Origin: Emcibacter sp. SYSU 3D8
GTDB lineage: Bacteria; Pseudomonadota; Alphaproteobacteria; SMXS01
Direction of reading: 5' to 3'
Assembly (NCBI RefSeq): GCF_039655875.1
Contig: NZ_JBBYXK010000002.1
Coordinates: 744,001 to 808,000 of the forward strand
Length of the DNA: 64,000 nucleotides
Each line of letters opens with the position of its first letter. Positions within the stretch are counted from its first letter, which is position 1. This document shows positions 5,782 to 20,603 of the stretch, one piece after another. A program made the translations under genes and the position numbers. Under the pieces are notes generated by a model. The model was given only the letters and a program-made list of their open reading frames with translations, had not been told where the DNA came from and made no database searches.

Positions 5782-6397
5782 GGGCAACTTCCTGAATTTG
5801 AATGATTTTCGCCTCGTCATCGGTGACGCTGGGAAAGGTTTCAGCGCGAAAGGTCCAGTGCTTGCGCGCGGCCGCCATCTCGGCTTCGGCATCACGTCCC
5901 TTCAGGAAGAAGGCGCGTCCATCCGCCGCAAGCAACGGCGCCGCATAGCCCAGCAGCCTGTCGAGAGGCGCCAGCGCCCGTGCCGTGATGATGTCCACGA
6001 TGGTGCCCTCCACTGCTTCGAGACGGGACGGCACAAGCTTAACAGAAACACCTGTGACGCGGGCGGCTTCTTGCAGAAAAGTGAGCTTGCGCCGGTCGCT
6101 GTCGATCAATGTCCAAGTGCCGACGCCCATGATTGCAAGCACCATGCCGGGAAATCCACCACCGGCGCCGAGATCGGCGCAGCGCGGCCTGCCGTGCGCG
6201 GCCCGGATCAGCGGCGCGAGCTGTGCCGAATCAAGGAAATGCCGGCGCCAGAGATCCGGCAGGGTAGCAGTGGACACCAGATTGATGGAGCGTTGCCATT
6301 TCTCGAGCAGCGCCGCATAGGCGCCGAGCTTATCTAATGTTTCACGTGAAACATGCGTGGCGCGCCCGAACGCGGCGGCATCGAATTCGCCGCTCAC
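5762..6397 (-). CDS. rsmG: 16S rRNA (guanine-527-N7)-methyltransferase RsmG
   Basis: A 211-residue SAM-dependent methyltransferase that modifies G527 of 16S rRNA. The motif I region [16 protein letters not shown] and the N-terminal [13 protein letters not shown] segment are typical of RsmG/GidB. Its start codon overlaps the mnmG stop by 4 bp and its 3' end overlaps parA, as in the classic gidA-gidB-parA-parB operon. A parS site lies inside codons for HVSRET near the N-terminus. Confidence 0.96.
6338..6353. promoter_or_regulatory. parS: parS centromere site 1, inside rsmG
   Basis: A perfect 16-bp palindrome TGTTTCACGTGAAACA, identical to the widely conserved chromosomal parS consensus. It lies inside the 5' part of rsmG and encodes part of HVSRET. 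parB and parA are 1.4-2.3 kb away. About 13 kb from the predicted oriC. Confidence 0.95.
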
Positions 6398-8339: not shown

Positions 8340-8355
8340 TGTTTCACGTGAAACA
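8340..8355. promoter_or_regulatory. parS: parS centromere site 2, mnmG-mnmE intergenic
   Basis: A second perfect copy of TGTTTCACGTGAAACA, in the 93-bp gap between mnmG and mnmE. It is 2 kb from site 1 and about 11.3 kb from the predicted oriC. Being intergenic, it is free of coding constraint, unlike site 1. Confidence 0.95.
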
Positions 8356-18351: not shown

Positions 18352-19401
18352 TCAGGCGTTGCGCCAGTTCCTGATCAGCTCGGATAGCGCCGCCACATGT
18401 TCGGGTGGCGTCTGGGGCACGATGCCATGGCCCAGGTTGAAGATGAAAGGTCCGTTCGACAATGTACCGAGAATGTGCCGTGCCTGGTCTTCCATCGCCT
18501 TGCCGCCAGTCACGACAGCCAGAGGATCCAGGTTGCCCTGGATTGCGACTGTGCTCTGCAACGTCCGGGCTGCCCATCCCACCGGCATGGAGGTATCGAT
18601 TCCGACACCGTCGATACCGGTAGCGGCGACATAATCCGCCGTTTTTGACCCGGCGCCGCGCGGAAATCCGATCACCGGCACATCGGGATAGCGCTGCTTC
18701 AGCTGGCTGACGATGGCCTGTGTCGGCGCCACGCACCAGCGGGCGAACTGATCCTCGGACAACACGCCCGACCAGCTGTCAAACAATTGCACCGCATGCG
18801 CGCCGGCCTCGATCTGATGGCCCAGATAGGCTGTCGTTGCCTCAACCAGAACATCGATCAGGGCGCCGAACACCTGCGGATCGCGCAGGGCCCACAACCT
18901 GGTTTCCTGGAATTCCTTCGAGCCGTGTCCTTCGACCATGTAGCAGGCTACCGTCCAGGGCGATCCCGCAAACCCGATCAGCGCGGTGCCGTCCGGCAGC
19001 GCGCCGGCTACCCGGCTGACGGTTTCATAAACCGGTGATAGCCGCTCATGGATGGTGGCGGGGTCAAGCGCGGCCACGCCGGCCCCGGTCCGGATCGGCT
19101 CGAGTACAGGACCTTCACCCTCCCGATATTCCAGTTTCTGGCCCAGCGCGTCGGGGATCAGCAGGATATCGGCGAACAGGATCGCTGCGTCCATGCCGTA
19201 CCGGCGGATCGGCTGCAACGTCACTTCCGCAGCGGCTTCGGGGCTGTAGCACAGCTCCAGGAAGTCGCCGACCTGTGCCCTGATTTTGCGGTATTCCGGC
19301 AGATATCGGCCAGCCTGACGCATGAACCAGAAAGGTGGCCGGTCCACGGGACGATGGGCCAGCGCGTCGATCAGACGCTTGCCGGTGGAAGGCTTGTTCA
19401 C
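18352..19401 (-). CDS. hemE: Uroporphyrinogen decarboxylase
   Basis: 349 residues. Converts uroporphyrinogen III to coproporphyrinogen III. The substrate-binding opening RPPFWFMRQAGRYLPEYR is present, as are FADILLIPDALG and GFAGSPWTVACYMVEG. GTG start at 19401, with an AAAGAGG Shine-Dalgarno. First gene left of the predicted origin, transcribed away from it. Confidence 0.97.
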   Translation of the reverse strand: MNKPSTGKRLIDALAHRPVDRPPFWFMRQAGRYLPEYRKIRAQVGDFLELCYSPEAAAEVTLQPIRRYGMDAAILFADILLIPDALGQKLEYREGEGPVLEPIRTGAGVAALDPATIHERLSPVYETVSRVAGALPDGTALIGFAGSPWTVACYMVEGHGSKEFQETRLWALRDPQVFGALIDVLVEATTAYLGHQIEAGAHAVQLFDSWSGVLSEDQFARWCVAPTQAIVSQLKQRYPDVPVIGFPRGAGSKTADYVAATGIDGVGIDTSMPVGWAARTLQSTVAIQGNLDPLAVVTGGKAMEDQARHILGTLSNGPFIFNLGHGIVPQTPPEHVAALSELIRNWRNA

Positions 19402-19591
19402 GCGCCTCTTTCCTTAAAGATTTTTTATAGGGGTAAGGTAGTAGTTGTAGTGGATGCCTGTGAGTCACGGGGGTTGCGCAGTCATACAATACTTGACTGC
19501 ATACTGACCACCTTTATGCCCGGTTTTTCGGCAGCTCGCCGCTATGGTGGACAAGTCCACGGCTATCGAATGAATCCGCCCGACACACTGG

Positions 19592-19609
19592 TGTGAATCA
19601 TGGGGATAA
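19592..19609 (-). promoter_or_regulatory. Two abutting DnaA-box-like sites
   Basis: TGTGAATCA (19592-19600) directly followed by TGGGGATAA (19601-19609). On the minus strand these read TGATTCACA and TTATCCCCA. The second differs from TTATCCACA at one base; the first matches the Caulobacter G-box TGATCCACA except for one base. A GANTC site overlaps the first. Confidence 0.6.
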
Positions 19610-19636
19610 AAGAGTCCCGGCGCGACGTCCTTACCG

Positions 19637-19645
19637 TGATTCACA
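19637..19645 (+). promoter_or_regulatory. DnaA-box-like site TGATTCACA
   Basis: Same nonamer as the minus-strand box at 19592-19600, in the opposite orientation, one base from the Caulobacter G-box. It overlaps a GANTC site. Confidence 0.55.
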
Positions 19646-19689
19646 GGCCCACCGCGAATCTTGTTCAACCGATTCACTCTTTGACCGGT

Positions 19690-19698
19690 TTATCCCCG
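19690..19698 (+). promoter_or_regulatory. DnaA-box-like site TTATCCCCG
   Basis: Two mismatches to TTATCCACA. It shares the TTATCCCC core with the minus-strand box at 19601-19609. Confidence 0.45.
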
Positions 19699-19739
19699 TT
19701 CTCACTGACCGGGCTGCAATTGTTGCCATCGCGGCCAGG

Positions 19740-19759
19740 TTATGCACAGTTCGTGCACA
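19740..19759 (+). promoter_or_regulatory. DnaA box TTATGCACA followed by a weaker copy
   Basis: TTATGCACA at 19740-19748 fits the TTWTNCACA consensus fully. TCGTGCACA at 19751-19759 repeats the GCACA half 11 bp on, giving one helical turn. This pair ends 19 bp before the ppsR start. Confidence 0.65.
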
Positions 19760-19778
19760 GCGAAAAATTGGGCGGTTC

Positions 19779-20603
19779 ATGCAACGATTTCACCTCCATC
19801 TGGTATCCGACGCCACCGGCGAAACGCTGAGTTCCGTGGCCAAGGCTGCACTCGCGCAGTTCGAAGGCTTCGATGCCATGGAACACATGCACGCCATGCT
19901 CAGAAGCACCAAGCAGATGGAGCTGGCGCTTGCCGCGATCCAGCGCACGCCCGGCCTGGTGCTCTACACGCTGGTCGACCGCGAATTGCGCACCCAACTC
20001 GAGGAAGGCTGCCGCGCGCTGGGTATGCTGTCGATCGCCGTGCTCGATCCGGTGATGGACGCCTTCGGCCGGTTTCTCGGTGCCGAGGGTTCGGGCCGTC
20101 CCGGCCAGCAGCACGAGATGAACGCCGAATATTTCGGCCGCATCGAGGCCATGGGGTTCACCATGGCCCACGACGATGGTCTGCGAACCGACGACCTGCA
20201 TCAGGCCGACATCATCCTGCTGGGCGTGTCCCGGACATCGAAGACGCCGACCGGCATCTATCTGGCCAATCGGGGCCTGAAGGTTGCGAATATTCCGATC
20301 GTGCCAGGCGTATCGCTGCCAGAGGAGCTGGACGGGCTGAAAAGGCCGCTGATCGTGGCGCTCACGGTCTCGCCCGATCGGCTGGTGCATATCCGCCGCA
20401 CCCGGATGCGCGCCCTGTCCGAGCCCGAGGATACGGCCTATGCGGATCCTGAGGCGGTGACCGAGGAAATCACCGCGGCGCGCCGCCTGTATCTGAAACG
20501 GGGCTGGCCGATCATCGACGTCACCCGCCGCTCCATCGAGGAGACCGCCGCCGCGATCTACAGTCTCTATCAGCGCCGGCAGGAAGAGTTGGACAGGGAA
20601 TGA
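19779..20603 (+). CDS. ppsR: Pyruvate,phosphate dikinase / PEP synthase regulatory protein
   Basis: A 274-residue DUF299 bifunctional kinase/pyrophosphorylase that switches PEP synthase or PPDK by threonine phosphorylation. Start at ATG 19779, giving the family opening QRFHLHLVSDATGETL. The P-loop-like GVSRTSKTPTGIYLANRG lies near residues 148-165. It is the homolog of Rickettsia RP001, the gene flanking oriC in Caulobacter. Overlaps maf by 4 bp. Confidence 0.94.
   Translation: MQRFHLHLVSDATGETLSSVAKAALAQFEGFDAMEHMHAMLRSTKQMELALAAIQRTPGLVLYTLVDRELRTQLEEGCRALGMLSIAVLDPVMDAFGRFLGAEGSGRPGQQHEMNAEYFGRIEAMGFTMAHDDGLRTDDLHQADIILLGVSRTSKTPTGIYLANRGLKVANIPIVPGVSLPEELDGLKRPLIVALTVSPDRLVHIRRTRMRALSEPEDTAYADPEAVTEEITAARRLYLKRGWPIIDVTRRSIEETAAAIYSLYQRRQEELDRE

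Follow-up and report, generated by a model that had tools for sequence, protein, structure and literature searches.

Does the 377-bp gap between the divergent genes hemE and ppsR hold the chromosomal origin of replication of this bacterium, and, if so, what are the unusual DnaA boxes that it contains? The host genome (4.07 Mb in 17 contigs) is alphaproteobacterial by its relatives and its gene order. The stretch of DNA that we analyzed, called the window below, is 64 kb long and corresponds to bases 744001 to 808000 of contig 2 (C2); coordinates are those of the window unless a contig is named. A preliminary description had placed oriC in the gap, and that assignment is well supported by the gene order, the clustering of boxes, the proximity of parS sites, and conservation in relatives. 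From the position, the boxes, and their conservation, we put the probability that the gap is the chromosomal oriC at about 80%. The gap, its flanking genes, and the parS sites are as follows.

6338 to 6353, no strand assigned: parS, perfect 16-mer
8340 to 8355, no strand assigned: parS, perfect 16-mer
18352 to 19401, minus strand: hemE, left flank of the predicted oriC (NCBIfam TIGR01464, 410 bits versus a cutoff of 302.95)
19402 to 19778, no strand assigned: predicted oriC, the 377-bp hemE/ppsR gap (gene order, box cluster, conservation)
19779 to 20603, plus strand: ppsR (COG1806/DUF299, homolog of RP001), right flank (NF003742/PRK05339, 321.9 bits versus a cutoff of 225)

The profile matches to TIGR01464 and NF003742/PRK05339, together with the ORF coordinates, bear out the divergent gene pair and the length of the gap as originally described. 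The start of ppsR at 19779 was set from homologs; the open frame itself extends up to 19593. The neighbors on the hemE side are hemJ and rho; those on the ppsR side are maf, aroE, dnaQ, secB, and a gene of the Tim44/TimA family. From reading the ORFs, we take the genes at the left end of the window to be parB, parA, rsmG, mnmG, and mnmE. The two parS sites lie 11 to 13 kb from the gap, and no further perfect copy occurs in the 983 kb of contig 2 that we examined. The GC content of the gap is 0.525, versus 0.585 to 0.702 when the 64 kb are divided into 2-kb windows; that is, its AT content is above that of its surroundings.

In 28 of the 30 loci of a first set, which included the window's own, hemE was divergent from and adjoined ppsR. 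The two exceptions, L004 (whose contig ends within the gap) and L031 (which is without hemE), were dropped from the gap counts. The same arrangement was found in 73 of the 80 loci of a second set, from which the seven without a divergent hemE were dropped. Within the host family, seven of eight whole gaps (six from the genus plus that of G007) are 377 to 382 bp long, and that of G008 is 404 bp. Despite this near-constant length, the family gaps are merely 42 to 66% identical to the window's gap. It is because of the gene order, the two nearby perfect parS sites, and the conservation of box positions in the genus that we consider the gap the probable oriC. The origin gaps of two congeners (L008 and L009) also contain a parS-like sequence, GTTTCACGTGAAAC, at the ppsR-proximal end (in L008 at G003:C2:199827); it is absent from the window's gap.

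The gap contains the following elements.

19410 to 19429, no strand assigned: AT tract on the hemE side, the presumed unwinding region
19439 to 19456, plus strand: degenerate triplet run TAG TAG TTG TAG TGG ATG, DnaA-trio-like, separated from the first box by 2 bp
19459 to 19467, minus strand: unwinding-side DnaA box TGACTCACA with an embedded GANTC (8 of 9 bases invariant in six genus gaps)
19482 to 19496, no strand assigned: conserved block TCATACAATACTTG, a TCATACA run (11 of its 15 positions identical in all six gaps)
19546 to 19554, minus strand: weak box TTGTCCACC (sequence match)
19592 to 19600, minus strand: DnaA box TGATTCACA with GANTC (a single invariant base among nine; the box is not conserved)
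19601 to 19609, minus strand: box TTATCCCCA, directly abutting the 19592 box (7 of 9 bases invariant)
19637 to 19645, plus strand: DnaA box TGATTCACA with GANTC (the allele differs between members of the genus)
19671 to 19675, plus strand: GANTC within a poor DnaA box, CGATTCACT, which differs from TGATTCACA at two bases (the GANTC is shared by five of the six genus gaps)
19690 to 19698, plus strand: box TTATCCCCG (8 of 9 bases invariant)
19740 to 19748, plus strand: DnaA box TTATGCACA (8 of 9 bases invariant)

All of the boxes listed in the preliminary description, the seven GANTC sites (starting at 19462, 19572, 19595, 19612, 19638, 19656, and 19671), and the AT tract are present; box TGACTCACA at 19459, on the minus strand, was absent from that list.

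The cluster is far beyond what base composition would give. In dinucleotide shuffles of the gap, GANTC occurred 1.24 times on average versus the 7 observed, and boxes occurred 0.07 times versus 5; none of 300 shuffles reached either number. Across 400 kb of the contig, only 0.04% of 377-bp windows had at least seven GANTC sites, and the gap ranked first under all four box definitions. When boxes like TTATCCACA alone were scored in the 983 kb of this one contig that the ranking covers, the gap was second, with a score of 8 versus 9 for a cluster at C2:10724; when TGAYTCACA was added, the gap was first, at 18 versus 9. Exact TGAYTCACA occurs five times in the same 983 kb and exact T-GANTC-ACA six times, and in each case three of the copies are inside the gap. 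The gap of G003 was likewise the best-scoring window in the 1.04 Mb examined there (score 8; the next was 7). The neighborhood of dnaA, which we considered as an alternative site for the origin, did not rank in the top eight box clusters of the 983 kb.

The cluster at C2:10724 to 11124 (L106), which is outside the window, contains an exact TTATCCACA in AT-rich sequence. From our reading of the sequence it is apparently upstream of uvrC, and it could serve as a promoter under DnaA control or as a reservoir for DnaA. A nucleotide search of the 1.04 Mb of G003 stretches gave no match to it.

The preliminary description had proposed conservation of the boxes in close relatives as a check. This held for most of the boxes but failed for the TGATTCACA at 19592. 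Mean base conservation over six genus gaps, which are related and so do not give independent counts, was 0.75 for the whole gap, 0.96 to 0.98 for the boxes at 19459, 19690, and 19740, 0.91 for the box at 19637, and 0.78 for that at 19592. Most box positions are fixed within the genus; L009 retains few in recognizable form. Where the window has the weak box at 19546, relatives carry TTATCCACA (L008), TTATCCACG (L005), or TTATCCACT (L007). The block TCATACAATACTTG, between the first and second boxes, is perhaps a promoter or the site of an unknown protein factor. Just before a GANTC, at 19660 to 19669, is TTGTTCAAC, which has 5 of 10 bases invariant in the genus gaps and a mean conservation of 0.90.

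Composition signals do not single out this position. A GC-skew switch elsewhere on the chromosome had been named as evidence that would speak against the gap, and here the outcome is mixed: the skew is weak, and its cumulative minimum in the 983 kb examined is at C2:857418, 94 kb to the right of the gap (at 763.4 kb), which neither clearly counts against the gap nor can be dismissed. GC skew was abandoned as a locator, since in 10-kb, 20-kb, cumulative, and third-codon-position form it gave no clean switch at the gap, only a local change. The KOPS-like octamer GGGNAGGG, also set aside as a locator, has its cumulative trough at C2 428 to 619 kb, 144 to 335 kb to the left; thus, the two signals disagree, falling on opposite sides of the gap. 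The GGGCAGGG form of this octamer is the top polar octamer in G003, and GGGNAGGG switches strand on the hemE side in both species (G000:C2:428000-619000 and G003:C2 about 320000 to 500000). Against the origin reading we counted these off-site signals, the distance to dnaA (∼124 kb), the nonconserved box at 19592, and three matters taken up below: no IHF site, no strict run of DnaA-trios, and a sequence resembling a CtrA box at gap position 13.

Could replication instead start 100 to 300 kb away, with the gap a relic or a DnaA-regulated promoter region? The skew minimum and the octamer trough, with its offset to the same side in G003, would agree with a displaced origin, but they point in opposite directions, and GC skew is called insufficient for locating ori in several alphaproteobacteria in passages of PMC1914354. 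With TGAYTCACA counted, the 983 kb holds no better box cluster, the parS sites are close to the gap, and both the gap length and most box positions are conserved in the genus; we therefore consider a displaced origin improbable. Still less credible, to the point of being very improbable, is the reading that the gap is an ordinary promoter region serving both genes, with boxes that arose by chance. Divergent flanking genes and conserved blocks other than boxes are what such a gap would have, but its box and GANTC counts exceeded those of all 300 shuffles, and most of the boxes are conserved across species.

Given that the gap is probably oriC, its variant boxes become the question. They read T-GANTC-ACA, and thus each contains a CcrM site. 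The new box variant that the preliminary description had noted is real, but because N differs between species while GANTC is constant, T-GANTC-ACA, a DnaA box that incorporates a CcrM site, describes it better than TGATTCACA alone. At gap position 236 (box 19637) the allele is TGATTCACA in the window's genome (G000), TGACTCACA in G001, G002, G004, and G005, GGACTCACA in G006, and TTATCCACA in G003. The unwinding-side box is TGACTCACA or TGATTCACA in all six genus gaps; outside the family, 7 of the 24 gaps that match have TTATCCACA itself there. Because the consensus TTATCCACA and the variants exchange in place, we take the T-GANTC-ACA sites to be DnaA boxes.

The six genus gaps have 34 GANTC sites versus 4.6 expected, with the window's contig as background, and among 16 gapped palindromes GANTC had the highest enrichment ratio and was the most conserved. 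It is retained at three positions, at one of them in all 6 species and at each of the other two in 5 of the 6, while the middle base changes; because GANTC is conserved while N varies, the sites within boxes appear to be under selection. T-GANTC-ACA was found in all seven genus gaps (one incomplete), in one to three copies each, with three in the window's gap. It was in neither of the two gaps from other genera of the host family (L010 and L011), and it was in 5 of 93 gaps outside the family. One of these, L191, from an uncultured Kiloniella, carries T-GANTC-ACA at the corresponding position on the unwinding side and seems to have gained it independently. In a literature search with mostly open-access coverage, we found no description of GANTC-containing DnaA boxes at a chromosomal origin. 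A probable oriC at the usual place for the class is a known kind of finding; the T-GANTC-ACA boxes and the missing CtrA appear to be new.

The preliminary description had drawn a parallel to Caulobacter, whose origin uses CcrM sites and CtrA boxes. The flanking genes and the GANTC sites in the origin stand, but the CtrA half of the analogy fails: CcrM and GcrA are present, but CtrA was undetected. The CtrA model NF045991 scored over its cutoff in none of the eight host family genomes tested (G005 and G009 were left out) versus nine of nine others. In G002, a CtrA match is split in two at the end of a 9,647-bp contig (L249, G002:C41) that also carries a ChpT match; because that genome has 3% estimated contamination, we treat the contig as doubtful, be it a contaminant, a remnant, or a real copy. 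The ChpT model gave 57 to 127 bits in the nine other genomes and noise levels in the family genomes except G002. The RAMA domain, a mark of CcrM, and the GcrA domain were both found in eight of eight family genomes (again leaving out G005 and G009), although the GcrA profile also matched a control in which GcrA is not expected, Sulfolobus acidocaldarius. The RAMA protein of the window's genome, the sole protein scanned whole, scored 622 bits against the CcrM model, below the cutoff of 830.

The CtrA box, TTAA-N7-TTAA, has no exact copy in the window's gap. A version with no more than one mismatch is at gap position 13 in five of six genus gaps and is exact in L005 and L007; in the window it has one mismatch and is inside the AT tract, and it may be what is left of a CtrA site or may simply belong to that tract. 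The IHF site (consensus WATCAANNNNTTR) was not found with up to one mismatch in the six genus gaps. In a class-wide sample, 166 of 241 alphaproteobacterial genomes had a CtrA match at E 1e-70 or better; thus, absence of CtrA is not rare in the class. The 75 without such a match include several large, near-complete genomes (e.g., G075 and G171).

We asked if loss of CtrA explains the abundance of GANTC. The observed/expected ratio was 3.87 in the host family (8 gaps), 1.83 in 29 other gaps from genomes without CtrA, meaning no match at E 1e-70 or better with at most 11 candidates scored per genome, and 1.12 in 15 gaps from genomes with CtrA. A one-sided rank test of the 29 versus the 15 gaps gave 0.039, ignoring kinship, and outside the host family the enrichment of GANTC with CtrA absence is a trend only. 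An earlier comparison of 8 versus 8 gaps had given 3.61 versus 1.06; its 8 CtrA-positive gaps are included among the 15. In the set of 75 genomes without detected CtrA, 20 were among those listed and the rest were inferred; 71 nonfamily and 4 family genomes fit the tally. A ppsR match was found in 46 of the 71, and the best 30 loci were used; L274, which is without hemE, was dropped to leave the 29. Four of the genomes behind these 29 gaps had no RAMA match, and in two more the match was under the cutoff. T-GANTC-ACA was present in only 1 of the 29 gaps. Therefore, losing CtrA is not by itself enough to give rise to such boxes, and we rejected it as the sole cause of the GANTC enrichment.

How might such an origin open? 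On the hemE side the order is AT tract, triplet run, two bases, and box 19459, which points towards the tract. From this architecture, we propose that DnaA would bind the array of mostly weak boxes in the gap, load from box 19459 onto the adjacent triplet run, and open the AT tract. The rule for a basal unwinding system, as worded in part of PMC8287927, is a DnaA box with no more than two mismatches to a species box, a spacer of no more than 16 bp, and at least three NAN triplets. By eye, no more than two NAN triplets occur in a row here, and strict DnaA-trios were rejected; therefore, we say that the hemE side would work like a basal unwinding system, not that it is one. Like the system of Bacillus subtilis, it has a box and, across a short spacer, a run of triplets next to an AT tract; unlike that system as portions of PMC8287927 present it, the middle base of the triplet is not always A, and runs of three NAN triplets do not occur. 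Outside the family there is a weak triplet phase (over 24 loci, the fraction of G was 0.45 in phase versus 0.40 and 0.21 for the two alternative phases), for a pattern that was picked after the sequences were viewed and that only 31 of 101 hemE-linked gaps match with no more than seven mismatches.

The T-GANTC-ACA form would put a CcrM methylation site inside a DnaA contact site in one to three boxes per genus origin. Fully methylated, half-methylated, and unmethylated boxes may then differ in their affinity for DnaA, which would help to limit firing to once per cycle; we infer this effect from the retention of CcrM and GcrA in genomes that apparently lack CtrA. Taken further, in a family without CtrA-ChpT, CcrM sites in DnaA boxes, the unwinding box included, would license replication: DnaA would bind the fully methylated origin and the freshly replicated, half-methylated origin differently, and methylation would replace CtrA as the once-per-cycle brake. 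This licensing proposal is speculative, and we regard it as rather unlikely to be right as it stands. A different account is that the gap is oriC but the GANTC sites are kept for transcription, i.e., for control of the hemE or ppsR promoters by GcrA and CcrM, with the overlap with DnaA boxes incidental. The presence of GcrA and CcrM domains agrees with a role in transcription, as do the conserved blocks other than DnaA boxes and the GANTC at 19671, which is within a poor box and yet is kept in most of the genus gaps. However, three of the seven GANTC sites of the window's gap are in exact T-GANTC-ACA and a fourth is in the two-mismatch version, half of the exact copies in 983 kb are in the gap, and at two positions N varies while the box-side ACA is constant. 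We consider the transcriptional account possible, though at odds well below even.

Known systems offer partial parallels to this origin. The Cori of Caulobacter crescentus is flanked by the same genes, hemE and COG1806, according to passages of PMC1914354. It too has several weak DnaA boxes, an AT-rich tract, boxes with T changed to G at position 2 (G-boxes [PMC4468827, in part]), and GANTC sites in the origin (PMC3973325, in part); the window's gap has 7 in 377 bp. The Caulobacter consensus given in an excerpt of PMC2877005 is [TC][TCG][AG]TCCACA, versus T-GANTC-ACA here, with the CcrM site inside the box. Also unlike Cori, the present locus has no exact CtrA box, no IHF site found, and a distant dnaA, in a genome in which CtrA was undetected. 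Among the origins covered in the same portions of PMC1914354, those of Rickettsia have hemE on one side and COG1806 on the other, as here, and are 383 to 395 bp long in three species; those of Wolbachia share hemE but have COG1253 in place of COG1806. Both differ from the present gap in being AT-rich and, in most cases, having CtrA and IHF sites (PMC1914354, in part).

Initiator sites that contain a methylation site are also found, in the nearest demonstrated case, at oriII of Vibrio cholerae, whose iterons include GATC and whose initiator, RctB, binds fully methylated sites best, as stated in sections of PMC2865523. There, however, the initiator, the methylase, and the replicon are different, and dependence on methylation was shown, whereas here it is predicted from sequence. 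Statements on the role of CcrM in initiation differ: the introduction of PMC2865523 states that Caulobacter initiation requires methylated GANTC, whereas a passage of PMC6090056, citing Gonzalez 2014, reports that CcrM is not required.

In this genus, natural variation splits the parts: the same box position is methylatable (TGATTCACA or TGACTCACA) or not (TTATCCACA) in genomes without detected CtrA, so a direct binding test is possible. More generally, a hemE/ppsR setting does not by itself imply control by CtrA. If the licensing proposal is true, methylation would be coupled directly to replication initiation in a family that has apparently lost the usual blocking protein.
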